DNA of 64,000 bases, from IMG/VR virus record IMGVR_UViG_3300013286_000010, positions 1 to 64,000 of that record. The stretch is one strand, 5' to 3'. Made by a program: the position numbers and the translations under genes. Shown here in pieces: positions 152 to 60,315 of this stretch. The notes beneath the pieces were generated by a model. The model was not told the DNA's origin. It ran no database searches and worked only from the letters and a program-made list of their open reading frames with translations. Source of the DNA: a virus. Within the stretch, counting starts at the first letter, position 1; each line of letters opens with the position of its first letter.

Positions 152-1117
152 ATGAGAATTAGAGAACTACTATCAGAAGGTGGAAATGTATTTGCAGGTA
201 AAACAACTGGCATTAGGCTAGAATATATTGAACCTACTCTTGCAGCATACTTTACAGAATTAAAACATATTTTTCCAAACAAAGCTGGTATTTTTAGTAA
301 ACAAAATTTTGTACCACTAGGGTCGGTTGGTAAGAAAGCAGTTAGCGGAGATATCGATCTAGGCGTTAGCGCAACTGATTTACTAGACAAAGCAATGAGC
401 GACGAGAGTATTGCAGCATGGGGAGTTGATCCCAAAGCAGTACAGGCAGAATTTGAAGCCCTGCAAAAGCGTGCCAGAACCAGTACACCAGAACAGCTAC
501 GCATGAAAGCGTTCCTAAAACAATTAACATTGTATATCAACAGTCATGCACCTAGCCTGTACTGTGATGAAAAGAAAGTTACTGATGGCAACATCTTTGG
601 CTTATTTCCACAGTTAACTGACAAAGGTGAACATGTAGGTAGCGGTGTTCAAATTGATTGGATGATCGGTGATCTAAATTGGTTAAAGTTTAGCTATCAC
701 TCTGCGGCATACCCAGAACAATCTAATGTTAAAGGGCTGCATCGTACACAGTTAATGTTGAGTGCATTCCAAGTAGCCAATTTAAGTTTCAATCATGTGG
801 CTGGCGTTAAGGATAAGGCAACAGGAGAAGTAATTGCCCGTGATCCAGACGATGCATTAAAAGTATTAGGTCAACGTTTGGGATTTAAGATTACACAAGC
901 CGATGCCGAAGACTATTACAAACTACACGCATTGTTAAAAGCTAGATTAAAACCTGAAGATTACAACACATTGTTGAATGTATACTTTAAAATTTTAGAT
1001 AGCACTCGTGCAGATATTCCGGACGACATGCAGGACGAATGGCGTAAGCGCAAGGATGCACTAGGCCTAACTGGCAAGTTCCTCCCGGACAATTCAGCAT
1101 TAAAGGTGAGACAATAA
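152..1117 (+). CDS. Nucleotidyltransferase-fold protein with capsid-targeting-like leader
   Basis: 321 residues. The N-terminus MRIRELLSE resembles the short hydrophobic leader of T4 internal proteins and ends in L-x-E followed by Gly, a T4 gp21-type cleavage context. Around residues 56-72 a GS motif followed about ten residues later by GDIDLGV is the DNA polymerase-beta-type nucleotidyltransferase signature (GS...DxD), which binds metal and NTP. The substrate cannot be told from sequence. The remainder is helical with no further recognised motif. An AGGA Shine-Dalgarno lies upstream, and the TAATG joint to the next gene, itself an NTase-fold protein, suggests the two act together. Packaging in the capsid is inferred from the leader only. 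Confidence 0.7.
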   Translation: MRIRELLSEGGNVFAGKTTGIRLEYIEPTLAAYFTELKHIFPNKAGIFSKQNFVPLGSVGKKAVSGDIDLGVSATDLLDKAMSDESIAAWGVDPKAVQAEFEALQKRARTSTPEQLRMKAFLKQLTLYINSHAPSLYCDEKKVTDGNIFGLFPQLTDKGEHVGSGVQIDWMIGDLNWLKFSYHSAAYPEQSNVKGLHRTQLMLSAFQVANLSFNHVAGVKDKATGEVIARDPDDALKVLGQRLGFKITQADAEDYYKLHALLKARLKPEDYNTLLNVYFKILDSTRADIPDDMQDEWRKRKDALGLTGKFLPDNSALKVRQ

Positions 1118-2961
1118 TGAGCGGCGTAGCAGGTGCAGATCGAGTTAAAAGCAGATTAGACTTTCAACAGTTTCTCGCTTCTTATCAACATTTACTGGGA
1201 CAGTTCCCGGGCTTTGTCAGCATGAAGCCAAGTGGTAGTTATAATAGCAATCCAGACAAACAAGACTTTGGTGACATTGACTTAATCGTACATATCCAAA
1301 GCGAAAAGGATAAGGCAACACTAAAGAAAGAACTTCAAGCGTTCTTTATGAAACAACCCGAGACTGTTATTGTTCCGTTCAGTAGTGCCAAACATGCTGG
1401 TAAGCGTACATACAATGCAGGTGAATTAGTCAGTGTTCGCTTCCATGATGATGCACTGGGCTACAGCGCACAAATCGATAACATTGTAGCATTGGATCAT
1501 TTGGAAGCAGGATTCAAACAGCAATTCTTAGACATGCCCGCAGAAATACAAGGACTGGTCTTGGGATTAGTTAAGATCTCTACTATCGAAACCGAGCCTG
1601 CTATCTTATTCCAAAAGTTAGGTATCAAAGCACAACCACAATTAGAACCTGATCAAGAATACGAGTTTAATTTAAGCGGAGTTGAATTGCAACTGCGCAA
1701 GGTCACTTACGAACCAGGTACATTCAAACAAGTTGGCAGAGACATAATCTGGAGTAGTAGGAATTACGACGACCTACAGAAGTTATTATATCAATACGAT
1801 TTGAATACCAACTTTGACAGTTTATTACAACAGGCTAAACAAAACATACGCAACCCACGTAGTAATCAACGTATGCAAGGTGTATTCAGCAGTATGATCA
1901 GCGTTAAGAGCGGCGAAGTCGGAACTCAAAAAGGTGCAGACAAAGAGGCAGCGTTGGCTAGAGTACAACAGGCATTTGGTGAATCTCGTAGATCAATATT
2001 TAGATCGTTGATGGAAAGTAATAATAAAACTGTTGCATTTGCATTTGGACGATTTCAACCTCCGACAATCGGACACGAACTATTGATTGTTGCTGTTAAA
2101 GAGGCCGCTGCTCAAGCAGGTGCCGATCATGTCATTTATGTTTCTAAAACACAGGATGCTAAAACTAACCCATTAGACATCGGAACTAAAATGGCATACT
2201 TACAAAAGATGTTCCCGGGAACAAACTTTGTAGCAGCCGATGCAACTGTAAGAACACCAGTTGAAGCAATCAAACATTTAAATCAAAAGTATAATGGGTT
2301 AATTTGGGTTGCAGGTTCGGATCGTTTGCCTGTATTCACAAAGTTGGCAAATGACTATAACGGTAAAGAATATCAGTATCAAAATATACAGGTCATTTCT
2401 TCCGGGGCACGAGATCCCGATTCAGAAGGAACTGAAGGCATGAGTGGTACAAAGATGCGTGCTGCGGCTTTGGAAGATAACTTGCAGGAATTTATGCAAG
2501 GACTACCAGGAAATATAAGTGAGCAAGATGCTATGAAATTAATGAACTTAATAAAACAAGGTATGCAAAAACCTGTCAAAGCAGCACCTGGCCCTAAATT
2601 GCCTAACACAACTGAAGCGACATTTAAGAAAAGTCCTTATGGTCGTACTGCCGCTAGCCAACAGCGTGCTAAAGATTTATTAAATCCTCCAAAGCCGCCA
2701 GAGCCAAAGAAAGATGAACCAGTTGCAGAAAAGATGATGCCAGCAAGTAATTTTGCAGGAACTCCTAAAAACAAATTAGGTTCAGCAGGACAATTAAAAG
2801 GCAATATGAAGCGTCCAGCAAGAGCAGGTGACCTGGTAGGTAGTGCTGAAGAAAGCCGAATTGTTAAAGGCGTTCCAATCAGTGAAGATGTTCAAAACAT
2901 CATGGACGCATTGATCAATAAGATTATATTCAATGAAGCAGTATCGAATAAGCGTAAATGA
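1117..2961 (+). CDS. Fusion: nucleotidyltransferase fold + NMNAT-like adenylyltransferase
   Basis: 614 residues. Residues about 40-60 carry GSYNSNP and then FGDIDLIVHI, a GS...DxD nucleotidyltransferase signature like that of the preceding gene. Residues about 305-470 form a cytidylyltransferase/NMNAT-type domain: GRFQPPTIGHE (the (H/T)xGH ATP-binding motif) and later GMSGTKMR (the ISGTxxR-type motif). NMNATs make NAD from NMN and ATP; other members act on FMN or pantetheine phosphate, so the substrate is inferred. Directly before this domain is LME followed by SNN, a gp21-like (L/I)xE site. The last ~130 residues are Pro/Lys-rich and look disordered. The gene starts at a TAATG joint with an AGGTGAG ribosome site. 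Confidence 0.75.
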   Translation: MSGVAGADRVKSRLDFQQFLASYQHLLGQFPGFVSMKPSGSYNSNPDKQDFGDIDLIVHIQSEKDKATLKKELQAFFMKQPETVIVPFSSAKHAGKRTYNAGELVSVRFHDDALGYSAQIDNIVALDHLEAGFKQQFLDMPAEIQGLVLGLVKISTIETEPAILFQKLGIKAQPQLEPDQEYEFNLSGVELQLRKVTYEPGTFKQVGRDIIWSSRNYDDLQKLLYQYDLNTNFDSLLQQAKQNIRNPRSNQRMQGVFSSMISVKSGEVGTQKGADKEAALARVQQAFGESRRSIFRSLMESNNKTVAFAFGRFQPPTIGHELLIVAVKEAAAQAGADHVIYVSKTQDAKTNPLDIGTKMAYLQKMFPGTNFVAADATVRTPVEAIKHLNQKYNGLIWVAGSDRLPVFTKLANDYNGKEYQYQNIQVISSGARDPDSEGTEGMSGTKMRAAALEDNLQEFMQGLPGNISEQDAMKLMNLIKQGMQKPVKAAPGPKLPNTTEATFKKSPYGRTAASQQRAKDLLNPPKPPEPKKDEPVAEKMMPASNFAGTPKNKLGSAGQLKGNMKRPARAGDLVGSAEESRIVKGVPISEDVQNIMDALINKIIFNEAVSNKRK

Positions 2962-3196
2962 TGTTCCGCAAGACAGCGGCGATGATGCATATCTAGCACC
3001 CGAAGATCCTATTCATGCTCTAAAAGCAGTTAGTATTATGGGCGGATTAGGTGGGCAACAGCGTCTTGCAGAATACAATGCTACATTAAGACCAGTAGTT
3101 GCGGGCAACAATAAAGGGCAAATACAACGCGAACAGAACATACGTCCTGGCACCGATGCGTGGTTTAAACTTTGGTTTGGACAAAATAATAAATAA
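2933..3196 (+). CDS. Conserved small protein of unknown function
   Basis: 87 residues, overlapping the previous gene by 29 nt in another frame. The start at 2933 has no clear Shine-Dalgarno and may depend on translational coupling. The product has an acidic N-terminal half (DSGDDAYLAPEDP), a Gly-rich turn (IMGGLGGQQRL) and a C-terminal WFKLWFGQNNK. No membrane segment or catalytic motif is seen. It sits between the NTase/NMNAT fusion and Dps in the cargo cluster. Function unknown. Confidence 0.6.
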   Translation: MKQYRISVNDVPQDSGDDAYLAPEDPIHALKAVSIMGGLGGQQRLAEYNATLRPVVAGNNKGQIQREQNIRPGTDAWFKLWFGQNNK

Positions 3197-3202
3197 TATA
3201 TC

Positions 3203-3646
3203 ATGGATAAATTAATTCAACTTACTCGCATTGGTTTTGGCACAACTTTTAGTTTTTATGTAAAAGTTCATTCTTTTCACTGGAACGTAGAGGGCAGTGA
3301 TTTCTACGAATATCATAAACTGTTTGAAGAAATCTACACAGAAGTCTACGGTGCAATAGACCCCTACGCAGAAAATGTGCGTAAATTAGGGGGATACATT
3401 CCTACTAGTTATCATAACCTCAGCATGTTAACCAAGATCGAAGACGAAGATCGTGTGCCCAACAAAGACGAAATGATACAAGAATTGTTACAAGACAGTG
3501 AGCGTATACAGATTGTTCTCAAGAAAAACTACGATGCTGCTGAAGCTGCGGGTGAACACGGGCTTTCAAACTTCCTTGCCGAAAGGCTTGACAACCATAA
3601 AAAACATGCATGGTTCCTGCGTGCTAGTTTAAAAGGATCAATGTAA
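3203..3646 (+). CDS. dps: Dps/ferritin-like DNA-protection protein
   Basis: 147 residues, close to the usual Dps length. The segment KVHSFHWNVEG followed by FYEYHKLFEEIYTEVY matches the Dps signature, where His plus downstream Asp/Glu residues form the ferroxidase site at the dimer interface. Dps proteins form 12-mers that oxidise and store iron and shield DNA from peroxide. The gene has no visible Shine-Dalgarno; an AATAAATA element ends 7 nt before the ATG. It lies among leader-bearing probable internal capsid proteins, with an SOD gene 4 kb downstream, suggesting an antioxidant role for phage DNA or the early-infected host. It lacks an obvious capsid leader itself. Confidence 0.85.
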   Translation: MDKLIQLTRIGFGTTFSFYVKVHSFHWNVEGSDFYEYHKLFEEIYTEVYGAIDPYAENVRKLGGYIPTSYHNLSMLTKIEDEDRVPNKDEMIQELLQDSERIQIVLKKNYDAAEAAGEHGLSNFLAERLDNHKKHAWFLRASLKGSM

Positions 3647-4017
3647 TGCGAGCTAAAGATTTTGTTAACGAAGTTAGAGGTGATGGTAAGATGCATCCTC
3701 ATATGGACAACGCTAACCAAGGCGCTGTTCGTATGCGTGATATCGGTGGATACGATCGTACCTATCACCTAAACCGTATTTGGATGGCCGCTGCAATGGC
3801 TGATGGTAAGAGTGCAAAAGCTGTTGATATGGATAGTGCCAGTTTTGTCGAAAAGTATAATGTGGCATTTCCTTACACTGATGCAGAACACTTGATGATA
3901 TTGGCTGCTATGGCCACTATTCCAACTGATAGCCAAGAATTAACCAAACGTGGTAAAAGTAAAGAACCGGATGATACTTATACAGTAAGTCCCGTAGCAA
4001 ATTGGATGAAGAAATGA
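3646..4017 (+). CDS. Leader-bearing probable capsid-internal protein, unknown function
   Basis: 123 residues. The N-terminus MRAKDFVNE followed by VRGDGKMHPH resembles a T4-type capsid-targeting leader with a V-x-E cleavage context. The body has a conserved-looking block (GGYDRTYHLNRIWMAAAM) and a C-terminal basic stretch. There is no enzyme motif. It begins at a TAATG joint after Dps with an AAAGGA site and ends in an ATGA overlap with the next gene. Function unknown; location in the virion is inferred from the leader. Confidence 0.65.
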   Translation: MRAKDFVNEVRGDGKMHPHMDNANQGAVRMRDIGGYDRTYHLNRIWMAAAMADGKSAKAVDMDSASFVEKYNVAFPYTDAEHLMILAAMATIPTDSQELTKRGKSKEPDDTYTVSPVANWMKK

Positions 4018-6125
4018 ACAACGAATTTAAAAAAGTAAAATCAAATGGCGAAACACGATTCGTGTTAGAATTCTCCGACGGTGGATCAACAAGTGCAGGC
4101 AGTATAGCTAGCGTAGAAAAACCACTAGGTGAACTACAGCGTAGAGCTGAACCGCCAAAACCTCGCAACTTCGTTGCCAAGAATGCCAAGATGGGCGGGG
4201 CTGGTCAGCACAAGGATAAGAAGAAGGCTGATAAGCAGGGTGATGTTAAACATCGTAAACCATTTGCTGAAGGCGATGTTGTTCCACTAGGTAAAAAGCA
4301 TCGTGGAGATTTAGAGGATACACGCTCATGCCCCAAGTGCGGTGGCGACTTACAAGGTGGAACATACATGGGACACCGAGTAAAAGTGTGCCATCCTTGT
4401 TCACAAGTTTATCTACCACCTAACAGCGGTATTGACCAAAAGGGTAATAAAATAGGCGAGCAAGGTGTGGCGGAAGGCTCTGAACAATATGATGAAATTA
4501 GTGACAAAGCATTCGATGAAGGATATGCTGGGTATTCTTATCGCAACATTTATCCCAAAGGCACTAGAGAATATGAGGAATATCACGAAGGGTGGTACGA
4601 CGGTCGCTTGGCTTTTGAAAAAGCAAACGACTACGAAAGCGACTTTTATATTTCAAGACCGGAGCAAGGTGTGGCGGAAGGTGAAAAGACTATGAGTCGC
4701 GCTGCCAAAGGTAATGAGAAATATGGCAAGGACGGCATGAAGGCACTAGCCAAGGCAGGTCGTGAAGGTGCTAGCGATGAGAAGCTAGATAAGATTCGAG
4801 ACAAGTATGACAACTATAATGAAGAAGCCAAACACGGTCTCTACTACAATGTAAACAAACGCAAGGCTGCTGGAACCAGTAGACCCGCATCAAGTCCCAA
4901 AGCACCCACAGCACAGGCGTGGAAGGATGCAGCCAAAACTGCTAAAAAAGAAAGTATAGCAGAGAGTGAAGGACGTTGTATGCAGTGCGGTATGAAAGAC
5001 TGCAAGTGTCCAGGTACCAGTTGCAAATGCAAACCTATTGCAGGTTGGGTACCGGGCAAAGGTTTCAAGAAAGCCACGGACGAAGCTGCCAATGCCGCAC
5101 AACAAGCTGCCATTGCAATTGCCAAAAAGAAAAAGCAAGGTGTAGAAGAAGAGTGGAGCAAGAAATACAAATCTAGTATCAACTGTAGTCATCCAAAAGG
5201 ATTCAGTCAAAAGGCTCACTGTGCCGGTAAGAAGAAGCACAATGAAAGTATGATGACAATGGAAGCGGTGTGCCCAGATTGCGGCATGTGCCAAACACAC
5301 GGCAATATTAGCGAGATTAAAAAAGGTGCTAAAGATTCAAATGGAGTTAGCAGTTGCTGGTCAGGCTATCATGCGGCTGGTACTAAAAAAGGCCGTAATG
5401 GTGGACAGGTTCGCAACTGTGTGCCCAACGAAGGTATAGCAGAAAATCCAGACTGGTACAATGACGAGGCAAATAGTATGTCTAGTAGTCAACTAAAAAG
5501 TCTATATAAACATGCAATGAAATTACGCCAAGCAGTTAAACGAATGCAGGCACAGGGTGATACATTAGAACCATGGCAACAGAGCAAAGTTACCAAAGCT
5601 GCTGATTATTTAGATGCTGTGTTCAATGCGGTGGACGACGAGCATGATATGGGCGAGCAGACTGAATTAGAAAGTGTAGGTATTCCATCATACGGCGTGG
5701 GCGGTTATCGCAATCGTGGCGATGATGAAAGACACGATCTAGATGATCCAGAACTACAACGTAATCGTCAAGAAGTCACATATTACAACATCACAATCGA
5801 CGGCAAACCTATTAATCCTGAACCAATCTTTGGTCGTAGTGCTACAATTGCATGGGGTAAGAAACATGCTGCCACTGGCGTGGATCTTTCCAACGCTATG
5901 ATATCTCCAGTTAAGTATACCGAAGATGCCTATATGGAATCACTGCAAAATATGTTAGAGCGTTCTGTGAGTCAAGCACAACATAACCTAATGGTAGGTG
6001 TTGCACACAATCCAGCATTTGCCCAAAAGGTAAAAGTTAAACGAGCTGTTGGACAAGAGTTTGCCAATGCAGATCAAGGTCACGACATTAGCAAACTACC
6101 AATCCGTGTTCCAAAAAAGAAATGA
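4014..6125 (+). CDS. Modular polyprotein-like capsid cargo with repeated cleavage-type linkers
   Basis: About 703 residues from the ATG at 4014, chosen over an upstream TTG at 4002 because it makes the ATGA overlap used throughout the window. The protein is a string of short modules. Linkers of one pattern lie near residues 151 and 219 (QGVAE then G), 314 (SIAE then S), 376 (QGVEE) and 474 (GIAE then N), each matching the (I/V)-x-E site of T4 protease gp21. Modules include a CPKCGGD...CHPC zinc ribbon, a Lys-rich NEKYGKDGMKALAKAG block, a Cys-cluster (CMQCGMKDCKC), a KYKSSINCSHPKGFSQKAHC block with further CPDCGMC cysteines, and a helical block beginning NPDWYNDEAN. Many modules are basic or zinc-binding, fitting DNA contact inside the head. 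Processing is inferred. Confidence 0.6.
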   Translation: MNNEFKKVKSNGETRFVLEFSDGGSTSAGSIASVEKPLGELQRRAEPPKPRNFVAKNAKMGGAGQHKDKKKADKQGDVKHRKPFAEGDVVPLGKKHRGDLEDTRSCPKCGGDLQGGTYMGHRVKVCHPCSQVYLPPNSGIDQKGNKIGEQGVAEGSEQYDEISDKAFDEGYAGYSYRNIYPKGTREYEEYHEGWYDGRLAFEKANDYESDFYISRPEQGVAEGEKTMSRAAKGNEKYGKDGMKALAKAGREGASDEKLDKIRDKYDNYNEEAKHGLYYNVNKRKAAGTSRPASSPKAPTAQAWKDAAKTAKKESIAESEGRCMQCGMKDCKCPGTSCKCKPIAGWVPGKGFKKATDEAANAAQQAAIAIAKKKKQGVEEEWSKKYKSSINCSHPKGFSQKAHCAGKKKHNESMMTMEAVCPDCGMCQTHGNISEIKKGAKDSNGVSSCWSGYHAAGTKKGRNGGQVRNCVPNEGIAENPDWYNDEANSMSSSQLKSLYKHAMKLRQAVKRMQAQGDTLEPWQQSKVTKAADYLDAVFNAVDDEHDMGEQTELESVGIPSYGVGGYRNRGDDERHDLDDPELQRNRQEVTYYNITIDGKPINPEPIFGRSATIAWGKKHAATGVDLSNAMISPVKYTEDAYMESLQNMLERSVSQAQHNLMVGVAHNPAFAQKVKVKRAVGQEFANADQGHDISKLPIRVPKKK
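4458..4477 (+). repeat. 20-bp direct repeat, copy 1 (cleavage-type linker)
   Basis: GAGCAAGGTGTGGCGGAAGG occurs here and, identically, at 4662-4681, 204 bp (68 codons) apart and in the same reading frame. It encodes the EQGVAEG linker of the modular protein. A shorter degenerate copy (AGCAAGGTGT) is at 5134-5143. Confidence 0.9.
4662..4681 (+). repeat. 20-bp direct repeat, copy 2
   Basis: Exact second copy of the linker-encoding repeat at 4458-4477. The flanking modules differ, so the identity is confined to the linker. Such repeats could let modules be exchanged by recombination. Confidence 0.9.
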
Positions 6126-6913
6126 AAATAAACGATTTATTAGAGTCAGACGACTACGAAATACATAACCAAGAAAAACTAGATCGAATATTGGTCAAGT
6201 TATGTGAGATGGTCATTGAAGCACAACAAGAAGATAGTGAATACTATGGTATGGTTGCTGCCGGTGTCCTCGATCCTGATAATAATTTAGCAGCTGGAGT
6301 AAATTATCCTCATGAAGAAGGCGGTCGTGTCCATGCAGAAAGAGCCGCAATGGAATTATATGAAAGCCAATATGGATCACCGGTTCCCAAAGGCAGCATC
6401 ATTATTACAACATTAAGTCCGTGTAATGAACACGCAGATCGAACAGCAGATAAGCGCCATGGCGAAAGTTGCACTGAACTAGTCAACAATTCTACTGTGC
6501 ATAAAGTATACTGCGGATACATGGATCCTAGTCAAGGTGACGACGAGCACGATGAGAGAACATTCACTTTAGAAGAAACTCGCAACCCTGCTATACGCGA
6601 GCTTTGCAAAAAGTTTGCAGATACATTCCTAGATGGTCATGTGTCTGAATCAGCAGCTTGGCATCGCAAGGCAGGCAAAAGTAAAACAGGTGGACTAAAC
6701 GATAAAGGCATTGCCAGCTATCGTAGAGAGCATCCCGGAAGTCACTTACAAAAAGCTGTAACTACTAAACCTAGTAAATTAAAACCCGGAAGTAAAGCTG
6801 CCAAACGCCGTAAATCATTCTGTGCTAGAATGGGCGGCAGTAAAGGTCCAATGAAAAAACCCAACGGTGAACCAACCCGTAAAGCCCTAGCATTGCGTAA
6901 GTGGAACTGTTAA
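6122..6913 (+). CDS. Zinc-dependent deaminase fused to a basic C-terminal module
   Basis: 263 residues. The leader MKINDLLE followed by S fits the capsid-targeting/cleavage pattern. Residues ~40-130 form a cytidine/deoxycytidylate-deaminase-like domain: HAE near residue 71 (zinc His and catalytic Glu) and SPC near 100. The second metal Cys comes only after a 15-residue insert (CX15C rather than the usual CX2C). Near residue 175, HVSE followed by S is another (V)-x-E site; after it comes a strongly basic ~85-residue module starting AWHRKAGKSKTGG and ending TRKALALRKWNC. The substrate may be a nucleotide, free base or nucleic acid; this cannot be decided here. It is joined by ATGA to the polyprotein-like gene and by TAATG to the next basic protein. 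Confidence 0.7.
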   Translation: MKINDLLESDDYEIHNQEKLDRILVKLCEMVIEAQQEDSEYYGMVAAGVLDPDNNLAAGVNYPHEEGGRVHAERAAMELYESQYGSPVPKGSIIITTLSPCNEHADRTADKRHGESCTELVNNSTVHKVYCGYMDPSQGDDEHDERTFTLEETRNPAIRELCKKFADTFLDGHVSESAAWHRKAGKSKTGGLNDKGIASYRREHPGSHLQKAVTTKPSKLKPGSKAAKRRKSFCARMGGSKGPMKKPNGEPTRKALALRKWNC

Positions 6914-7107
6914 TGCGTATCTTTGAACTTGTAGAAAACTTTGCAGATGGTCGAAATCCCCAAGACAAGGGCGACAGCAAGAGACATGGCATCAATACCA
7001 AAGCCAGTGTAAGTAGTCTGCGTAAAACTGCCAAACAAGGTGGTCGCAAAGGACAATTAGCTCATTGGCTAGCCAATATGAAAGCTGGACGAGCAAAGAA
7101 GAAATAA
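6913..7107 (+). CDS. Small basic leader-bearing protein
   Basis: 64 residues from the ATG at 6913, which overlaps the upstream stop (TAATG); an in-frame GTG at 6901 is less likely. The start MRIFELVE followed by N is a clear leader plus (L)-V-E site. The rest is very Lys/Arg-rich (KDGRK-type composition, ending KAGRAKKK) and looks DNA-binding. The block NPQDKGDSKRHGI looks like a module that could equally be a segment of the polyprotein-type gene upstream. Likely packaged with DNA, by inference. Confidence 0.65.
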   Translation: MRIFELVENFADGRNPQDKGDSKRHGINTKASVSSLRKTAKQGGRKGQLAHWLANMKAGRAKKK

Positions 7108-7109
7108 AA

Positions 7110-7207
7110 TCAAGTGCCGATTTACCTTTAAGCCACATTGGCTGTACTACGAAAAAACAGGGAAAGCTCATAGTTAGGGGTCCTCGGATGCCCGGTTAAC
7201 CACTTGA
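7110..7207 (+). ncRNA. Possible small structured RNA in the gap before SOD
   Basis: The ends TCAAGTG (7110-7116) and CACTTGA (7201-7207) are perfectly complementary and would close a 7-bp helix around 84 nt. Inside are AGCCA/TGGCT (7131-7143, 3-nt loop), CTGT/ACAG (7142-7160, overlapping) and a GGG/CCC hairpin near 7177-7194. There is no tRNA T-loop and no U-tract. It could be a cis-regulatory leader or mRNA 3'-end structure. No known class recognised. Confidence 0.3.
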
Positions 7208-7232
7208 CATGATATTTACCGATAAATATATC
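7204..7232 (+). promoter_or_regulatory. Promoter region of SOD gene: sigma70-like and late-type elements overlapping
   Basis: TTGACA at 7204-7209, 17 nt, then TATATC at 7227-7232. Within it, GATAAATA at 7221-7228 is a T4 late-type element. The late start would fall about 7234, at the A of the SOD ATG, so that transcript would be leaderless. The sigma70 start would fall inside the gene, so the late element is the more useful reading. Confidence 0.45.
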
Positions 7233-7233
7233 C

Positions 7234-7776
7234 ATGTATAACTTTATAAAACAACTACAAGAAGGTAGAGTAATTAAAAAATTAGAGCAGGTAACATTGC
7301 CCTATGCTCGTGACGGTCTTGGTCGTAGTCTAAGTAAAAAAGCAATAGATTATCATTATGGCAAATTATACGGCGGATATGTAACACGATTCAACGCCGG
7401 GGAGGGTGATCCAGATTTTAACGAAGCCGGTGCTTTCTTACACAGCATTTATTTCCCACAAATGCAGCCACCAAAAAATTCAAATCAACCTGCTGGTAAA
7501 TCTCTAGAATTTATCAACCAGCATTTTAAAAGTTTTGACAAGTTTAAAGAAACGTTTGAAAAAATTGCTATGGGCATACAGGGCAGCGGATGGGTCTATC
7601 TTGCCAAGAATGGAGAAATCAAAACTATCGTTAATCACCAAATCAAGAATGATATCATACTGCTAATAGACTGGTGGGAACACTCTTGGGTTCTGGATTA
7701 CCAAGCGGACAAGAAAGGTTATTTAAATAACCAATGGAAAATTATTAATTGGAATTTAATTAACGAAAGATTGTAA
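7234..7776 (+). CDS. Iron/manganese superoxide dismutase homologue
   Basis: 180 residues. Matches the Fe/Mn SOD family: LPYARDGL near the N-terminus, DYHYGK (first metal His), AGAFLHSIYF (second His, in place of the usual NH-x-F/W-Y-W), GSGWVYLA, and DWWEHSW (metal Asp and His). All four metal ligands are therefore present; the family's active-site His in KHH is Leu here, while the following Tyr is kept. SODs convert superoxide to peroxide and oxygen. The gene has no Shine-Dalgarno. The N-terminus MYNFIKQLQE followed by G looks like a capsid leader with an L-x-E site, unusual for SOD. With Dps nearby, this suggests an antioxidant set carried in the virion; that is inference. Confidence 0.85.
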   Translation: MYNFIKQLQEGRVIKKLEQVTLPYARDGLGRSLSKKAIDYHYGKLYGGYVTRFNAGEGDPDFNEAGAFLHSIYFPQMQPPKNSNQPAGKSLEFINQHFKSFDKFKETFEKIAMGIQGSGWVYLAKNGEIKTIVNHQIKNDIILLIDWWEHSWVLDYQADKKGYLNNQWKIINWNLINERL

Positions 7777-12437: not shown

Positions 12438-12805
12438 TAAAAGGGATATCCCAAGGCGGGCGTTATATTACGGTAACTGGAGGTAGTCCTTCCAACCCCT
12501 ATATTTCGCCTGGCAGTCAATCAGCAGGCATGATGCGCTATAATACCAACATGAATACTGTAGAAGTGTATGATGGGCAATCTTGGAAAGATATTAGTTC
12601 AAATTATGCCAACATATCATTAACTATGGAAGCAGAATCGTTGCTCGATTGGGCTCGTAAAAAGCGTGATGAAGAATTACAATACAAATCATTAGCCGAG
12701 AGTCATCCTGCTGTTAAAATTGCCATGGACAATTTAGAGAAGGCTAAACTACAATTAGATGCTACAATAATATTAAGTAAAGAACATGATACATCAACAA
12801 GTTAA
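12434..12805 (+). CDS. Unknown protein with a fibre-like strand motif
   Basis: 123 residues, coupled to gp45 by ATGA and overlapping the next gene by 20 nt. The N-terminal half (GMMRYNTNMNTVEVYDGQSW) is a beta motif common in phage fibre and baseplate-attached proteins; the C-terminal half is a charged helix (LLDWARKKRDEE). No enzyme signature. It might be a structural or accessory protein that happens to lie among replication genes. Function unknown. Confidence 0.6.
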   Translation: MIKGISQGGRYITVTGGSPSNPYISPGSQSAGMMRYNTNMNTVEVYDGQSWKDISSNYANISLTMEAESLLDWARKKRDEELQYKSLAESHPAVKIAMDNLEKAKLQLDATIILSKEHDTSTS

Positions 12806-14417
12806 TTTAACACCATTACAGCAGGATTATGCTGTATATCTTCCGGCCATCAGCTCGTTTTACAGCACCTATATTGCTAAACAACGTTTAGAAAAGTTTA
12901 TCTCCGACGATCGTATTCCCGCTGGATTTGATCGCGGCGTTGAAGGTATGAACTTCCTTAATCCAGAACAAGGATACTTTACTTACAAGTACGGTTTGTA
13001 TTCAGCAGGTCACGCACAGTTAGATCTACAAAAGAGTCTTACACAAGAGTCAATGATCCAACAACGTGATCGTAATAACACCATGATTCTAGGCGACTCC
13101 GGTGGATACCAGATTGGTAAGGGTGTTCTTAAGTTTGATTGGTTAGATTTTGAAGGTAAAGAAGCCACAAAGACTCGTCAGAAGATTCTTGAGTGGTTAG
13201 AAGTAACTGCTGACTGGTCAATGATGCTAGACGTTCCTACTTGGGCATGTGACCATATTCACAGTCCAAAGACTGGATTGAAAACATTTGAAGACTGTCT
13301 AGACAAAACACGTTATAACAACGATTACTTCTTAATGAATCGGTTGGGTCAAACTAAATGGCTTAACGTGCTACAAGGTGGCGATTGGGAAACTGCCGAG
13401 AAATGGTACGACGGTGTTAAAGAATTCAGCGATCCAGCAGGTAAGTATGCGGGTCGCGAAGCAGAAGGTTGGGCCTTTGGTGGCGCTAACATGTGCAAAA
13501 TGGATATCACGTTAAAGCGTCTCATGACCTTGCGTGAAGACGGTTTGCTGAAGGGCAAAAACTGGATCCACTTCTTGGGTACAGCGCAACTTGACTGGAG
13601 TTGTTACTTAACTTTAATCCAAAGACAAATCAGGAAACATATCAATGAAGAAATTACCATATCTTTTGACTGCGCCTCACCTTTCATCGCAACAGCGCAC
13701 GGACTTGTCTACACGAACGCCCAGCACACGCCAAAAAGGTGGAGTGTTATTATGGACAAAGCCCCAGACAACAAATCACTGTCAGGAAGCGACATCCCGT
13801 TCCCATTCGAGTCAAGTATCGGTCGCAGACTAACAATGGCAGACATTGCCTATTATAATCTAGGCGAGCGTAAAACTGATAAAGAACTAAATGGTGTCAA
13901 GTTTGATCACTTAAATCCAGATCACTATCATGTTGTTCCGCGCCGTAACAAGCTAGATAAGATTCCTAACAAAACATCGTGGGACAGTTTTGCCTATGCA
14001 TTAATGATGGGTCATAACGTAGAATGTCATATTGTTGCTGTACAACGTGCTCAACAATTAATGGACATTGAGATTGCCAAAGTTAAAGATCGGCTAACAT
14101 GGAAACAATGGAAGAAGGTCAAAGGCTCTGATATGAGCGACGAGCACAGCGATTGGGTTCCGCGTAATATCTTGTATTTCTCTAGTCTAATTAAAGACTT
14201 GTTTAATACCAAGACCAAGGCAGAAGCATTTGATATGATTGATAAAGCTGGTCCCTTCCTGCGTAGTTTAGAAGGTGCTCGCTTGCAAGGTGGTCCTGCT
14301 CAAAACACCTTTGGAAATTTGTTCGAAATTGAACAAGTAACATCAGTTGAAGAAATTGATTTAGCTAATCCAGATGACGACGAATTGAGAGCACTTGAAG
14401 AAGCTATAGGAGAATAA
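12786..14417 (+). CDS. dpdA: DpdA-like DNA 7-deazaguanine transglycosylase
   Basis: 543 residues. Tracks the tRNA-guanine transglycosylase (TGT) barrel: GDSGGYQIG (TGT DSGGFQ), MMLDVPTW, VLQGG, GWAFGGANMCKMD (TGT ALGG), HFLGTAQLDW (TGT HYLMG), and SFDCASPFIATAHG, which aligns with the TGT nucleophile segment FDCVxPTRxARxG. DpdA proteins use this fold to swap guanine in DNA for a 7-deazaguanine base such as preQ0, which blocks restriction enzymes. The typical TGT zinc cysteines are not evident. QueD-like and QueE genes downstream supply precursors. Early-type context on the replication strand. Confidence 0.85.
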   Translation: MIHQQVNLTPLQQDYAVYLPAISSFYSTYIAKQRLEKFISDDRIPAGFDRGVEGMNFLNPEQGYFTYKYGLYSAGHAQLDLQKSLTQESMIQQRDRNNTMILGDSGGYQIGKGVLKFDWLDFEGKEATKTRQKILEWLEVTADWSMMLDVPTWACDHIHSPKTGLKTFEDCLDKTRYNNDYFLMNRLGQTKWLNVLQGGDWETAEKWYDGVKEFSDPAGKYAGREAEGWAFGGANMCKMDITLKRLMTLREDGLLKGKNWIHFLGTAQLDWSCYLTLIQRQIRKHINEEITISFDCASPFIATAHGLVYTNAQHTPKRWSVIMDKAPDNKSLSGSDIPFPFESSIGRRLTMADIAYYNLGERKTDKELNGVKFDHLNPDHYHVVPRRNKLDKIPNKTSWDSFAYALMMGHNVECHIVAVQRAQQLMDIEIAKVKDRLTWKQWKKVKGSDMSDEHSDWVPRNILYFSSLIKDLFNTKTKAEAFDMIDKAGPFLRSLEGARLQGGPAQNTFGNLFEIEQVTSVEEIDLANPDDDELRALEEAIGE

Positions 14418-15207: not shown

Positions 15208-15371
15208 TTAATCCTAAACTAACAAAAACAACTCCACAAACAAGCGAAGAGCGACTGTTTAAGTTACTAGAAGGTATTGACTGGAAGCTATGGGAAATAT
15301 ATAATATGATGAAAGACAATCTCCCAGAAAAGGCAAATACTAAAAAATCTGTAAAGAAAGTAAACGAATGA
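15204..15371 (+). CDS. 55-residue linker gene in the deazaguanine group
   Basis: Reads MINPKLTKTTPQT and continues as a short Lys/Glu-rich helix (LFKLLEGIDWKLWEIYNMM) to a basic tail. It overlaps the genes on both sides by ATGA, so the three-gene chain is translationally coupled, which supports it as real despite its size. Function unknown. Confidence 0.65.
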   Translation: MINPKLTKTTPQTSEERLFKLLEGIDWKLWEIYNMMKDNLPEKANTKKSVKKVNE

Positions 15372-15721
15372 ATAAAACATATATTCGAGTACGCACAGAA
15401 TTTGAAGGCTTTCATTTCTACCCAGGTGCAGGATCAATTAATCCTAAAATTGCATTCCTAGAAAAAGAACATCGTCACATGTTTAAAGTAGAAGTAAAGA
15501 TTTCAGTTGATCATCTTGACAGAGAATTAGAGTTTTTTCTAGTCAAATGGGCACTACAAGATTTCATCAAATCGGGCAATCAAAATCATAAGAGCTGCGA
15601 AATGATGGCAACAGATATTCTGCAACAACATTTAATTCCCAACTACGGATATCAAAGATACTATGAGATCACAGTTTCCGAAGATGGCGAATCGGATGGC
15701 ATTGTAGAATATATTCCCTAA
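15368..15721 (+). CDS. queD: QueD / 6-pyruvoyl-tetrahydropterin synthase-like protein
   Basis: 117 residues, the usual size. Three zinc His fit the family: one in EGFHFYPG and two in EHRHMF (usual HGH). The C-terminal ITVSEDGE strand matches the region carrying the catalytic Glu. In QueD a catalytic Cys lies four residues before HGH; here that position is Leu (FLEKEHRH), so the normal 6-carboxytetrahydropterin reaction is doubtful. It may make another pterin or use a different residue. Neighbouring dpdA and queE still argue for a 7-deazaguanine role. Confidence 0.7.
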   Translation: MNKTYIRVRTEFEGFHFYPGAGSINPKIAFLEKEHRHMFKVEVKISVDHLDRELEFFLVKWALQDFIKSGNQNHKSCEMMATDILQQHLIPNYGYQRYYEITVSEDGESDGIVEYIP

Positions 15722-18725: not shown

Positions 18726-19586
18726 ATGAAAATAAAAGTATCCGAATTATTCTATTCCATTCAAGGTGAAGGTCGCTTTATGGGCGTCCCTAGTGTGTTC
18801 TTAAGAACATATGGCTGCAACTTCACCTGTCAAGGTTTTGGTATGCCACGCGGCACATTGAGCACAGAAGCAGACAAGGTTGCAGTAATGCATGCCATGC
18901 ATCCATTTAAAGATTATAAAGAACTACCACTTGTCGGCACAGGGTGTGACAGTTATGCAAGTTGGCATCCAGACTTTAAAGAATTAAGTCCAATGGTAGA
19001 AGTCGACGGACTTGCAAAGAACATAGTAGGTACATTGCCTTTTAAAGAATGGCGTGATGAACATCTTGTCATTACAGGTGGCGAGCCATTGTTAGGGTGG
19101 CAACGGGCATATCCAGAATTATTAGATCAGCCTTGCATGACGAACTTAAAAGAAATTACTTTTGAGACAAACGGAACAATGCGTCTGACCAAAGACTTTA
19201 GACAATATCTACTTAACTGGACATTGGGCAATAAGTCAAGAGGTCGAGATGCACTTACATTTTCCATCAGTACTAAACTGCCGTCGAGTGGTGAAGCATG
19301 GGAAGATGCTATCAAGCCGGAAGTGGTATTAACATACGAAGATGTCGGACACGCATATCTCAAGTTTGTTGTAGCAACAGAACAAGATATCGAAGATGCA
19401 TTAAAGGCAACACAACAATATCGTGATGCTGGATTCAAAGGTAATGTCTACTTAATGCCGGTCGGCGGCGTTGAAAGTGTATACAGCGTTAATAACAAAA
19501 CTGTTGCATTAGCTGCAATGAAACATGGTCTCCGTTATAGTGATCGTTTGCAGGTGCCGTTGTTTAAAAATGAGTGGGGAACTTAA
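18726..19586 (+). CDS. queE: QueE-like 7-carboxy-7-deazaguanine synthase
   Basis: 286 residues. N-terminus VSELFYSIQGEGRFMGVPSV is the QueE signature, with LRTYGCNFTC following and VITGGEPLL as the SAM-binding motif. QueE makes 7-carboxy-7-deazaguanine from 6-carboxytetrahydropterin. The cluster cysteines are unusual: CNFTC supplies the first two, but the expected third Cys two residues on is missing. A later GCDSYASWH, matching the usual CDTxYAW, comes after 38 residues, giving CX3CX38C. E. coli QueE has no such insert. It starts behind its own sigma70-type promoter and leads the operon with RNase H. Confidence 0.88.
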   Translation: MKIKVSELFYSIQGEGRFMGVPSVFLRTYGCNFTCQGFGMPRGTLSTEADKVAVMHAMHPFKDYKELPLVGTGCDSYASWHPDFKELSPMVEVDGLAKNIVGTLPFKEWRDEHLVITGGEPLLGWQRAYPELLDQPCMTNLKEITFETNGTMRLTKDFRQYLLNWTLGNKSRGRDALTFSISTKLPSSGEAWEDAIKPEVVLTYEDVGHAYLKFVVATEQDIEDALKATQQYRDAGFKGNVYLMPVGGVESVYSVNNKTVALAAMKHGLRYSDRLQVPLFKNEWGT

Positions 19587-31943: not shown

Positions 31944-34900
31944 TTAAAATCCTTCAGTTAATGGTTTATTGTTATCATCTAACAAGGGAGATCCGTCATT
32001 ATCAGTTAATGTAATATCTCCTCCGTAGTAGTACTTATCAGGTAATTCAGCTGTTTTCTCTTGTAAGAATTTAGCAGGCAATGTTGTGCTATCTATAATT
32101 GATAAAGTTCTTCTAGAATTATTAGGATCAACGTCATTCCATTCTGCAGATTTATCAAATTCTTTTTTAACAACTGCTAACTTAATCCGATCACCGACAC
32201 CGCCTGTAATATTTAATATTAATTGTTGTGTATTCGATATAGTAAATTCGGGAGGTAAGTATTGTAGTCCTCGGTATACATATCCTTTAAACGAATCAGG
32301 TTCGATAGAATCTGTGTAGACCCAGACTTGATTTGTTGATGTTACTGTATATGCCTTGCCAATTTCTGTGGTATACGGCAATCCCGCAACAGTAGATGTT
32401 GTTCCAATTTTAATACCTTTGGTGTCCGGACTGTCATATGTGATAGTAGTATCGTGTATATAGGTTCCAGATTTTCTTAATAATCTACCACCATAAAATA
32501 CCTGTACCTGATCTTCAGGATTGACGATACTATTCAATATTATACCGTCGCTAATTAATACCTCATTGGTGCCAGTAACTGTTAATTTTTGTGTAACAGT
32601 ATTGATACTATATGTCGATACTCCATTACTTGTATAATGAACTTGTGTTTTAATTGTTTCTGTAAAAGGAATAGTTTGATTAACACTTTGGTCTATTACT
32701 TTAGTACCTGGAGCAGAATAACGACTAGGAGCTGTACCTAATGTACCTCTTCTTAATTGACTCAATACAGTCTTACTTGCCTTCATAAATTCAATACGTT
32801 CACCGTCAATAATAACAACGCCGGGTATTTTTTTACTTAACATAGGTTGTGTAAGAACAGTAGCATCAGCCACATGAATTTCAGTATCTTTATAAGACAA
32901 TGGGCTGGTTAGATAAGTTGTATTTTCTTTAGATAAACGTTTAAATGAAGTTCTATTAAACATATCATTGAAAATTCTATAACCTAGCAGAGTAGTAGCC
33001 AACCGTTGATCAACCATACTCCTAATAACAATGGAGTCAGTTGATAGAATTGAATATGCATCACTAATTTGAATTGTTAATTGATCGTCCAATACATCAA
33101 AATCTAATCCGCTAGTTAGAGGTGTTCCGTTCAATTGTACCCATACATAATTTATATTAGTTACAGGGCGAGTAACTTTAAATCTTCTATTTGGATTACC
33201 ATCAAATCTTTCTGTTCTTATCATCATATCGTCATTATCGTTATATGTGAGAACTTTGATTTCTCCTGTAGAAGTACTAACACTTAATTGTAATTTAGGA
33301 ATTCCTGCGTTGTCATAATATATATCATAGTCATAATCTTTATCTCCACCAGTTGGTAGATCTACTATTGCAATTGCATCTCCGCTAACTAGTGCCACAC
33401 GTGATATATCAATTGTCAATAAATTATCAGACACTGTATAATCAAATCCAGGAGTTAGTTTATTTCCATTTCTATATGCCCTAACTGTTCCGTCGTATGT
33501 GTTAAATGTTCCTTGATTGTTGATTAAGAATACATTATTTGTAGACGATGTTACCTGATAGTAATCAATATGAGGAGGTGTCAATTGCTTACGAATCTTT
33601 GTATTAGGATTATAATACTCAACAATAGGAGCAGCAACAATTGGATCTATCTCATTTGATTTTATGTTTATACAGGTAGCAGTAAATGCAGAAGTATTCA
33701 ATGCAATAGTCTGTTCACTGATCTCGTTAAAATAATCGTATTGTGTACCAAAGAACCAAGCCTGTATAGTGCTTGTGGTCCCCGGAGTTAATCCGTAAAC
33801 ATTAACAGCAGCACGATCGTTTTCTATATTAGAAAATGTTAATTCAAAATAAGGTAATGCAGTTGTAATTGTAGTTATTGCAGATCCGTTAACAGTTACA
33901 TATGCGCTCTTGACAGAACTAGTTGATGCTAAACTAGAAACTTGAGCAATAGTTTCAAATCCAAAAATAGTAGAACTACCGGGCAAGTGTGTTGCAGAAG
34001 CAGAATCAATTATTCCATTCTCACGTCCAATATGACCGCCACCTATACTTATGATGGTATAACCTAGATACCCACTAACTGATTGAGGTCCAACTACAAT
34101 TTCATTGTGTTCCCAATCTATATAAAAGAATGGGCTATCAAGTTCAGTAGGAATAAAATCACTTACACTAAACATTTTACCATTAAAGGAAACTGTGATA
34201 TTGTTATTGCTTGGAGGTACTATACCTAATTTTCTGCGAGTAGTAACATTAGATATTATGTCTATTGAATGTGAAAATACAACAGGAGCTCCATAAAATG
34301 TTTTAGTATAGACATTTATTCCTACACTGTCAGATGCTTGTCCAGGTAAAAATTCTTCCGGAGCATGGCTAGTATCCGCTGTATAAAAGGCGTCGCCGTT
34401 AATAATAACTTCAGGAGAACTGCTATTTCCGTCTATTGCACTATCAAGTAAGTTAGAATTCTCTTCATATTTCCAGAATTCTATAACATAACCTTTTGGT
34501 ATTTCTGTGGTAGAAAAGTCACTAACTTCTATAGAACTCGAAAGTGCATAGACTGCACTAACTAATACATTTGTTATCTTAAATACCGTAGACGTGGTAC
34601 TGATAATATTAACATTTTGACCCGCTTCAATACCGGTAACTGAATCTAAAATAAATGTATTAGAACCAATAGTAGCCGTAGTGGTTACTACAGCCGTTGT
34701 ATAAAATCCAACATCGTCAGCATACGGGACAGTATCAAATGTATTTGTAGAGCCAGAACCGTATAAAAAATCCCATGCAGAATTTGTAAATGGCAATCCT
34801 TCAATTATTGTTTTAGGATAATTAATACCTGAAATTAATTGATCAAATTCTGGATTCTCTGGATCAAAACCGGGCATACCAGAAGCCGCTTTATAATAAT

Positions 34901-37900
34901 TTTGAATCCTCTCCGAAGCATTGAAAAGATTTATACTCTTTGTGTATATTACTTTTAATACTTGAGAGACTAATGGTACATAATTTAAAAATACCACTTT
35001 ACTAAACTTTTTTGTATATCCGTTGTACTGCGCTGTAAAATACTTAATTGTATAATCCGAACGTAGCACAACATTGCCATCTAGTGTAATAGTAATTTTA
35101 GATTTGTCTGCATCTGCTAACCAGTTTAAAGTAAACTCTTCAACCGATCCGTTACATACAAATTGATCAACTACAATATTATTTCCTATTTGATCAGTTG
35201 ACCCCACTCTATCAAATTTCATACCTATTTGATTAGTACGAACTTGTTTATTTGTTAAATGCGTGTAGGCAATTGCTACTACTCCAGTTGTTCCGCCTTG
35301 CAACTTAACAGTCGGTTGTCGATAAAAAGTGCTAGTAGTGTTATTAGTAATCTCAATTGAAATTACTTTTCCAGACTCTATATGAGCAATTGCTCTAAAA
35401 TCTTCAATTACTTGATAGTATTCGTTGAACACCAAAACCGTTGGAGCAGATGTATAATTAGTCCCAGGATGTGATACCGAAATATGATCAAGAGCAAAAC
35501 CTCTATTAAGCAAAAATGACTCTTGAGGTTTAGGAAGATTTAAACTTTTGATGTAATCAGTAGTAGCATCTACATCACCGACAGCAAAATTGTCTGTTTG
35601 ATAGTAATCAACCAAGTTGCCGTTTACCCAACGATACGGATTATCAAAATCAGTTGAAAAAGTATTTGTAGGTTCTACCAATGTATGGTTAGATGTAAAG
35701 CTACGAACAATTGTATGATAGGGTTTTACTTCATCTAGATATTGTTCGTAGTAATCGCTACTAGAGATTTTGTAAACAGGTCGTTGATCTAATGCACCTG
35801 CATAATTTACTACGTTAATGAATGAAGTTTTAAATGCCCAGTCCAATAATTTCTGTTCAGACAATGCATACTTAACTGCCTTGAAGAAGAATAAATTCCA
35901 ATTAACTTTTAATTCATTAACAAAAATATCATCTCTCAATGCAATCAACATATATTGCAATTCAATATCTGGAGTTTGATCATACAATGTTTGATCATAA
36001 CTATTATTTTGATCAAACCCATAGCTGCTTAATGGCAGGTCCCAGATAGTATCTAATATTTGTATTGTGCCATTCTCATTGTAGACAATATTGTAATCAG
36101 TACTAAACGATCCAACAATACCCAAAGCAGTTTTTTCTAATATTATGTAATGACCCGATCCGCCATTTTTAATTTTAACATACTGGCCTGCTGACAATGT
36201 TAATTCGTTTATTTCATAAACATCATTGACTGTAGCTGTAAAATCCAAGAAAGGATTATAATCAGTACTGACCCAGTCTACATATTTCCAATATAGAGGA
36301 GTATTATATTGTTGAGTTGCTACTCGTGCCCAAGTTAATGTATCAAGGTCGTAAATAAATTTAGACCATCTGTTTTTAAATTGGGTATCAGCTAATACAA
36401 TAACAGTATAGGGTCTAACTTCTAATGTAGGCGCTTCTGTAAATCCGTTGCCAGCATTGACAACTTTGACAGATATAACCCTACCTTGATTGTCAATTTC
36501 TGTAGAAATTTCTGCATCAGATTTAACATCACTAATAATTTTAACTGTCGGAGATATCTTATATCCAAATCCCGGATTATCAATTATAACAGTTTGAATC
36601 TTACCGTTATCAATTACACATCTTAATTTAGGAATGGCAAATAATCTAGTGTCAATTATTAATAAACCTTCATTATCTTCAACTGTTTGATCGTACTCGT
36701 GGCTATTAATGTCAGAAACTAACTGCTGTTTATTTAGATTTGCAAAACTATAATTTCCAGTTATTCTATTTTTAAGTAGAACAGAATTTGTAAATTCCAC
36801 TAAATTTCTCAACGCTTCCAATCTATCTTTGAACAAAGTTTGTTGAGGTCTAATGCCAATTCCATATCGCGTTCTAGATGTTAGTGTTGGATTAGGAACA
36901 GGATTTCCTAACTTGTCATGTCCTAATAAACTATCAATTAATTTTTTCTCAAGCAATGCATTAGGTCTGCTGGTCGCAGAACCTTCTTGCAATAGCAACC
37001 ATTCAGTATGGCGGTTTGTACTTGATTCAGCAATATTTTTATTAGTAGAATCGATTGCGACATTTAAATGTATTCTATTACCGACTAATAAAGATCCAAT
37101 ATTAGCTAATGCAATTGCATTAGTATCAATAATTGCCGCATATTGAACTCCGTATGCAGTAGGATTATAGATCATAGATGCAACTTGATAGCTACTGGCT
37201 CTTCTATTTTTAACATCAGGAACTGTAGATTTATTCTTAACCCAGTAGTAATAACGAGTGCTGAATGAATTCGTTACAGAATTATAAACTTGTTTAGAAG
37301 ATATTACACTATCATCGGCAACTTTAGGTTGTCCGCTGATTCCTTCTGTTAGGCCCAAGGCAGTATCTGCCAGTTGACTCCACTCACTAGGAAGATAACT
37401 AGATCCAACCCACTCATATACATCGATACTAGCACCTGGGAATAATTTGCCCCAGTTATTCTTTCTATAAGTTAGGTCGCTTTGTTCATACCAAACATAT
37501 TTTGCAGTGCTCAAATCCCACCATAGCTCACCTACGTGGTCTTCTAACCAGTTTGTTTCGGAGTCAATAACGGTTGAAGTAGTTCCTGCAGAATAAACTG
37601 CTGGATCAAATGTTGTTCTATAGGTCAATTCTTGATCAGCAATGCCAACGATCTTTCCTTTTAGAGGATCAACAACATCAAGATAGTTGATAATTTCTTC
37701 AGTAAAAGAGTTAATCAAAGTCACACGTTGTATTGCATCAACCATGGTCAAGCTATCTTGTTCTCTTAAAATTTTAAAACCATTAGTAGATTTATCAATC
37801 TTATTAAACTGATAGAAGGCATTAACTGTATTTGAATTTTTTAAAGAAGGTGCACCTACTAGTATGCAATCATCAATTGTTACGCTAGTTCCGTAGAATG

Positions 37901-59715: not shown

Positions 59716-60315
59716 ATGAAGATTGAACAGTTAATTAAAGCAGTAAATGAATCCGCAAGTAATGAGGATTTTAATGCAATGTCTCAAAAAGCTAATGCTA
59801 TCAAACAGCAACAGGGTGTTACAAAACCAACAGGTACGGTTCTTCCTTTTCCTAAAACTACCACAGCTACTCCTGGTCCTGCGGGAACTACAGGTCCAAG
59901 TGCTTTAGATAAATTTAAGCAGGGAGCTAGCGCAGTTGGTTCTGCTATTAAAACAGGTGCCCAAGCTGTAGCTAAAAACGCTCCAGCAGTTGGTCAAGGG
60001 GTTAGCAATGTTGCCCAAGGGTTAGGCACAGCAGGTACAGGTATTGTTAAAGGTGCTGGAGATATTGCCAGTCAAGCAGTTGGTGGCGCAACACAAGCAG
60101 TCGGTGCCGGTCTAGGTGGTATTGTTCATGGATACAAAGCTGCTCGTGGTGGACAACAATTTGGCGGAGGTGGTACTGCTGGAACTCCTAGTTCGGCAGG
60201 TGCTCCAAGTACACCTAGTTCTGCAGGTGCCGCAGCAGGCGGTAATGACGAGATGGATCAGTTAAGATCTACACTACAGACAATGGATCAAAGACTACGC
60301 AGGGCAGGTATTTAA
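59716..60315 (+). CDS. Gly/Ala-rich leader-bearing head-interior or scaffold-like protein
   Basis: 199 residues. N-terminal MKIEQLIKAVNE followed by S resembles the capsid-targeting leaders and (V)-x-E sites of the 0-7 kb cargo genes. The rest is Gly/Ala/Thr low complexity with amphipathic repeats (AVGSAIKTGAQAVAKNAPAV) and a short C-terminal coiled helix (QLRSTLQTMDQRLRRAG). Behind a perfect late promoter, so a late virion protein. Prohead core or packaged protein is likely; a tail role is possible from its position. Confidence 0.6.
   Translation: MKIEQLIKAVNESASNEDFNAMSQKANAIKQQQGVTKPTGTVLPFPKTTTATPGPAGTTGPSALDKFKQGASAVGSAIKTGAQAVAKNAPAVGQGVSNVAQGLGTAGTGIVKGAGDIASQAVGGATQAVGAGLGGIVHGYKAARGGQQFGGGGTAGTPSSAGAPSTPSSAGAAAGGNDEMDQLRSTLQTMDQRLRRAGI

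Follow-up and report, generated by a model that had tools for sequence, protein, structure and literature searches.

The first 8 kb of the 64,000-nucleotide stretch of viral DNA analysed here (the window; bases 1-64000 of the 83,092-bp IMG/VR record IMGVR_UViG_3300013286_000010) raise a simple question: why do the genes for a Pol-beta-superfamily nucleotidyltransferase (NTase), a deaminase, a superoxide dismutase (SOD) and two small proteins all begin with a short leader ending in (L/I/V)-x-E? Judged by its sequence, the source is an uncultured T4-type myophage; it encodes a family B DNA polymerase, and a megablast search of the phage isolate collection found no near relative of it. We consider it very probable that the cluster genes encode head cargo of this phage, with a removable leader, and that linker-joined polyproteins exchanging modules belong to the same system.

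The original prediction, made from this sequence, had listed six leader-bearing open reading frames (ORFs) and their N-termini, all of which are present as described, with five of them (the NTase at 152, 3646, the deaminase at 6122, 6913 and the SOD at 7234) clustered within 8 kb. It had also proposed that the leader stands on unrelated folds, and both the clustering and the breadth hold up when counted. A loose form of the leader, M-x(3-10)-[LIV]-x-E, was compared with shuffled sequences and is found in 18 of the 74 genes of the source genome against 7.4 expected; this excess is only about two-fold, so that some of the genome-wide matches are due to chance, and we rejected that count as too noisy to serve as sole evidence. 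Within the 8-kb cluster the same pattern is present in 5 of 9 genes against 1.1 expected (P ~0.001). A strict form, M[KR]x(2,3)[EDQK][FLI][ILVF]xE, was counted in loci of relatives of the NTase, SOD, deaminase, 6913 and 3646 genes, for which neither the leader nor the DNA linker described below had been a criterion of retrieval; it begins 214 of 2,111 distinct genes where shuffled sequences would give 0.5, and residue 9 in this gene set is Glu in 16.8% against a baseline of 5.3%. Across all fetched viral loci, 311 leader proteins fall by BLAST into 64 clusters with no mutual similarity past the leader. The consensus is approximately MRAxEFIxE|, about 8-12 residues long, and a joint alignment has M1 and E9 as its sole invariant columns, E9 being partly forced by the selection. 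Pfam matches among the leader-bearing cargo include ADP-ribosyltransferase (ADPrib_exo_Tox), NUDIX, deaminase, cytidylyltransferase, GNAT, LysM, GH19 and M48 domains. Four other leader proteins (L214:8455-9147, L279:2134-3045, L107:6588-7457 and L230:3143-3505) look kinase- or ADP-ribosyltransferase-like by eye and have no Pfam match. That the leaders are a common amphipathic helix start or chance, with the xE incidental, draws something from the noise in the loose count and is hardly credible given the strict-pattern excess, the constancy of M1 and (in part by construction) E9 across 64 unrelated groups, and a junction Glu that is independent of the sequence upstream.

The constant part of these proteins is the junction, and it is the sequence upstream of it that changes. 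All 22 leader-bearing NTase homologues have [LI]xE directly before GGNVF, behind leaders as different as MITFKEFITE, MKSFVEFITE, MRIFELLME and MRIKELLTE, among others, and where the domain lies inside a longer protein or polyprotein it again directly follows xxE (4/4). Six leaderless NTase homologues begin M|GGNVF or M|GGNIF, so that their sequence sets in just where the predicted cut would fall, in keeping with a removable tag. For the 6913 protein, to which no match was found among phage isolates, a Glu precedes NFADGRNP in 91/91 homologues, of which 21 have a leader upstream and 70 one of many different polyprotein modules. The SOD keeps [LIVM]xE in 47/47 leader homologues, and the same motif lies upstream of the DUF6321 domain in 56 of 70 polyprotein-fused and 11 of 21 leader cases. 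E9 is present in 15/15 homologues of the 3646 family, in which residues 10-25 vary; this count is taken from an alignment because an ungapped register undercounts the site (12/33).

A candidate enzyme for cutting these sites is encoded by the same phage. The 19 kb beyond the window contain a gp21-type prohead protease (Peptidase_S77, PF03420, 5e-26), which matches the solved structure of the T4 prohead protease (PDB 5jbl) at 2e-15, as well as the T4 portal gp20 (1e-110) and Gp23 capsid protein (6e-97); S77 is present in 10 of 10 linker or NTase contigs of at least 150 kb. The same xE motif is found in the capsid propeptide and in the scaffold-position protein. Of the [LIV]xE sites of gp23, three fall in its first 60 residues and one in the other 333 (4.1 expected), and its site HLAE41|S lies no more than about 3 residues from the position at which mature T4 gp23 begins. 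The scaffold-position protein, which by synteny is probably gp22, has 22 [LIV]xE sites against 10.2 expected and shows no enrichment of [LIV]xD. A late-promoter-like DATAAATA lies 13-37 bp upstream of the SOD, ferritin and 59716 genes, and likewise upstream of several structural genes. The further claim that the leaders resemble the T4 capsid-targeting sequence (CTS) cut by gp21 is thus strengthened by the presence of S77, gp20 and gp23 and by an xE junction that is kept as the upstream sequence varies; a capsid-targeting-like leader, predicted to be cut by the gp21-type protease, is the best reading and a supported one. We propose that the leader would direct a protein into the core of the assembling prohead, where the protease would cut it off after (L/I/V)-x-E and leave the enzyme free in the head; the freed NTase, SOD, small basic proteins and possibly the deaminase would be injected with the DNA, as would ADP-ribosyltransferase, Nudix and GNAT proteins in relatives. 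Packaging and delivery of tagged proteins by the source phage is, to this extent, a well-supported prediction.

The conserved Glu could also be read as a helix cap that opens each domain, in proteins that are ordinary uncleaved fusions. It is constant before NFADGRNP within polyproteins too, where P3 is not always hydrophobic (53/70). However, the six leaderless NTase homologues start without the Glu, the same P3/P1 rule applies to several unrelated domains, and the scaffold-position protein is enriched in the same motif; we regard the helix-cap reading as quite improbable.

The cargo reading also draws on cultured relatives and on the folds themselves. The cytidylyltransferase T4-GC190 of cyanophage S-SM1 is a homologue of the domain in ORF 1117 and begins MKKFSAFLNE|A; it was detected in purified virions by mass spectrometry (PMC3037559). 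The SOD of Pseudomonas phage PAC2, which also encodes S77, begins ...YISIAE|A. For the SOD of phage PA5oct, a literature search found no virion data. AlphaFold2 models the NTase at a pLDDT of 89.6, with leader residues 4-10 below 50, and Foldseek matches it to DNA polymerase beta (probability 1.00, E 6e-6, TM ~0.38); the model is confidently of Pol-beta type, with a leader predicted to be disordered. These proteins could nevertheless be structural components of the tail or capsid that undergo processing during assembly, and not injected effectors. The late promoters would suit such a role, and the cyanophage protein T4-GC119 has a structural annotation in S-E7. A stand-alone DUF6321 protein is found in four podophages of Pelagibacter and Prochlorococcus (L435, L437, L438 and L439) that have neither S77 nor leader; its gene lies between the scaffold and capsid genes in three pelagiphages and beside the capsid gene in the fourth, a position that suggests a head protein. 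The joint absence of protease and leader in these podophages counts in favour of the cargo reading. Against this stand enzyme folds with their active-site residues kept (SOD and deaminase) and a leader-bearing ADP-ribosyltransferase, as in T4 Alt, and a structural role of this kind seems unlikely.

The most striking feature of the cluster, which the original prediction did not use, is the predicted polyprotein encoded at 4014-6125. The commonest polyprotein site is (E/K)QGVAE|G, and its coding DNA is nearly invariant over 18-21 bp (AAGCAAGGTGTGGCGGAAGGC). The two EQGVAE|G sites of this ORF share 20 identical bases; the linker 20-mer recurs in other viral contigs, in more than 100 stretches and often in several copies per gene, and a search of bacterial and archaeal genomes (257 Gb) gave three matches, which we judge to be chance. 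In 83 linker contexts identified from the protein motif, in loci not selected by linker, Ala is encoded by GCG in 90% (expected 9%), Val by GTG in 86% (expected 25%) and Gly by GGT in 95% (expected 44%). Third-position identity between random linkers, in a set that includes linker-fetched loci, is 0.85 against 0.44 expected, and the information drops to background beyond ~20 bp. All of the 311 DNA linker copies lie in the same reading frame (frame 0), which rules out a frame-independent mobile repeat and indicates that protein and DNA are both constrained.

The modules between the linkers change partners. The 198 linker ORFs yield 275 inner modules with a median of 78 residues; 32 module families recur in at least 3 ORFs, 25 of which have differing left neighbours and 21 differing right neighbours, and the N-terminal module shared with the window polyprotein has a different right neighbour in each of 14 ORFs. 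Where DNA homology between ORFs ends internally, it does so inside a linker in 263 of 835 cases, against 47 expected, the left ends gathering at the linker start and the right ends at the linker end. A linker that is kept as in-frame DNA, and at which homology breaks, looks like a cassette-swapping point. We suggest that the xE site would separate the modules of a polyprotein, several small proteins thereby being delivered per gene, and that modules may be swapped between phages at the near-invariant linker. The linker DNA might instead be kept for a reason unconnected with shuffling, such as translation pausing or an RNA or DNA binding signal, with modules moving by ordinary illegitimate recombination; its core is G-rich and, by eye, partly Shine-Dalgarno-like. 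Yet homology ends concentrate at the linkers, and modules retain their linkers on a change of neighbour, and we think this alternative possible, on balance doubtful. A stronger form of the cassette reading, which we put forward tentatively and hold to be not quite an even proposition, is that the QGVAEG linker serves both as a protease site and as a dedicated site of recombination: uncultured T4-type phages would share an exchangeable pool of tiny head-cargo cassettes, joined in frame through DNA identity and set free by the prohead protease, the injected payload evolving like a cassette array.

Several observations weigh against leader-tagged head cargo as the account of this locus. The ferritin/Dps gene (3203), ORF 1117 and ORF 2933 lie in the cluster and have no N-terminal leader, and the polyprotein itself has no significant [LIV]xE enrichment (9 against 6.3). 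The virion support comes from a homologue, T4-GC190 of S-SM1, for which the source, as far as available, reports presence and not N-terminal processing. The sequence collections hold related and partly redundant entries, and the shuffle statistics ignore kinship. The original prediction had named a fold kept in homologues without the leader as evidence to the contrary; such proteins do occur, some of the leaderless NTases being in S77-bearing contigs (G025 and G030), which makes the tag optional, while the six that begin right past the cut are what a removable tag would leave. The deaminase, included in the set from the outset, does have the leader, but its site is kept in just 5 of 29 relatives, in which the MR-x-x-(E/D)F start often persists but the cleavage site does not. 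An Asp at position 10 of the T4 CTS blocks processing and still allows targeting (PMC9026906), so that an uncut tag is possible for the deaminase.

Features of the window and the evidence for their assignment
Feature	Position	Strand	Evidence or remark
Pol-beta-superfamily NTase; leader MRIRELLSE, then GGNVF	152..1117	+	AlphaFold2, Foldseek, junction kept in homologues
NTase leader, 9 residues	152..178	+	Cut predicted after E9
NTase-like N-terminal part fused to cytidylyltransferase; SLME|S before the latter, tail with more xE sites	1117..2961	+	phrog_3041 5e-60
Late-promoter-like AATAAATA	15 bp upstream of 3203		Precedes ferritin/Dps-like gene
Ferritin/Dps-like protein, without leader	3203..3646	+	PF00210 2e-20
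Small protein, leader MRAKDFVNE	3646..4017	+	E9 kept in homologues
Putative cargo polyprotein, 703 residues, several small modules; sites VAE|G, IAE|S, IAE|N, VEE|E, FAE|G between them	4014..6125	+	
DNA linker gagcaaggtgtggcggaaggc	4458..4478	+	Encodes EQGVAEG
DNA linker gagcaaggtgtggcggaaggt	4662..4682	+	Encodes EQGVAEG
Degenerate linker copy aagcaaggtgtagaagaagag	5133..5153	+	Encodes KQGVEEE
Deaminase domain, leader MKINDLLE|S, fused via VSE|SAAW to basic DUF6321 domain	6122..6913	+	PF00383 2e-8, PF19846 3e-21
Small basic protein, leader MRIFELVE|NFADGRNP	6913..7107	+	
T4-late-promoter-like GATAAATA	7221..7228	+	13 bp upstream of SOD start
Fe/Mn SOD, leader MYNFIKQLQE|G	7234..7776	+	PF02777 2e-23, metal ligands kept
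Late sigma factor	54233-55159		phrog_12791, 2e-80
Gly/Ala-rich protein, leader MKIEQLIKAVNE|S; candidate member	59716..60315	+	Behind late promoter TATAAATA

Some other features of the window can be noted. The N-terminal part of the cytidylyltransferase ORF (1117-1990) has a second GS..DID nucleotidyltransferase-like motif, which would place two NTase-like domains side by side. A single minus-strand ORF at 31944-44837 adjoins baseplate and tail genes; at 4,297 residues it is of unusual length for a structural protein of a phage. Genes at 12786-14417, 15368-15721 and 18726-19586 resemble by eye the tRNA-guanine-transglycosylase-like DpdA, QueD and QueE, a trio that would constitute a 7-deazaguanine DNA modification pathway; in Pfam the third has a weak radical SAM match below the cut-off and the other two have no match.

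The closest parallel is provided by the T4 internal proteins IPI-III and Alt, with their CTS and gp21 (PMC9026906, PMC3012670), which likewise have an N-terminal leader of about 10 residues cut C-terminal to a Glu, an S77 protease, T4 head genes, unrelated mature folds and an ADP-ribosyltransferase among the cargo; Alt, an injected enzyme of this type, is the classic T4 cargo (PMC9026906). The system described here differs in its far greater number of folds, its shorter MRAxEFIxE consensus, the V allowed at P3, and its polyproteins with internal sites and DNA-identical linkers. Kyanoviridae cyanophages share DUF6321 and leader-bearing (MKKFSAFLNE) cytidylyltransferase modules, in T4-GC119 and T4-GC190, as well as S77, but the sequences examined have no QGVAEG linker. 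The phiKZ-like giants SPN3US and 201phi2-1 also cut many head proteins after x-x-E and remove propeptides; they use an S80 protease and an S/A-x-E motif, and the accessible part of that account (PMC5694885) reports no reused DNA linker or module arrays. The polyvalent proteins of Iyer et al. 2017 similarly place several effector domains, predicted to be packaged and injected, on one polypeptide; they are defined by other domains, ADP-ribosyltransferases (ARTs), metallopeptidases and MuF, and the text of PMC5512222, as far as searched, describes their autoproteolysis by a built-in peptidase and no processing at repeated linkers by a prohead protease. Pfam finds none of the polyvalent hallmark domains (metallopeptidase, ART, MuF, ParB) in ORFs 1117 and 4014-6125. 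Integron-like arrays depend on a site-specific integrase and a structured attC, whereas, compared on linker sequence alone, the element here is a plain 18-21 bp.

A general role of the CTS in bringing cargo into the heads of T4-like phages has already been proposed (PMC9026906). Our searches of the open literature found no account of GVAEG in phage, of polyprotein cargo with a prohead protease, or of DUF6321, and relative to that literature the breadth of the leader, the linker with its identical DNA and the polyproteins with the same predicted cutting sites appear to be new. The cargo of phage heads varies widely and is for the most part unannotated, which has long made it a blind spot; the leader provides a sequence rule for predicting it, one that already flags 64 unrelated protein groups, most of them without a known domain. 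Leaders and linkers could also serve for loading proteins into T4 heads. The linkers suggest that such cargo may evolve fast, by in-frame cassettes, with one short sequence acting both as protein cutting site and as DNA identity patch.

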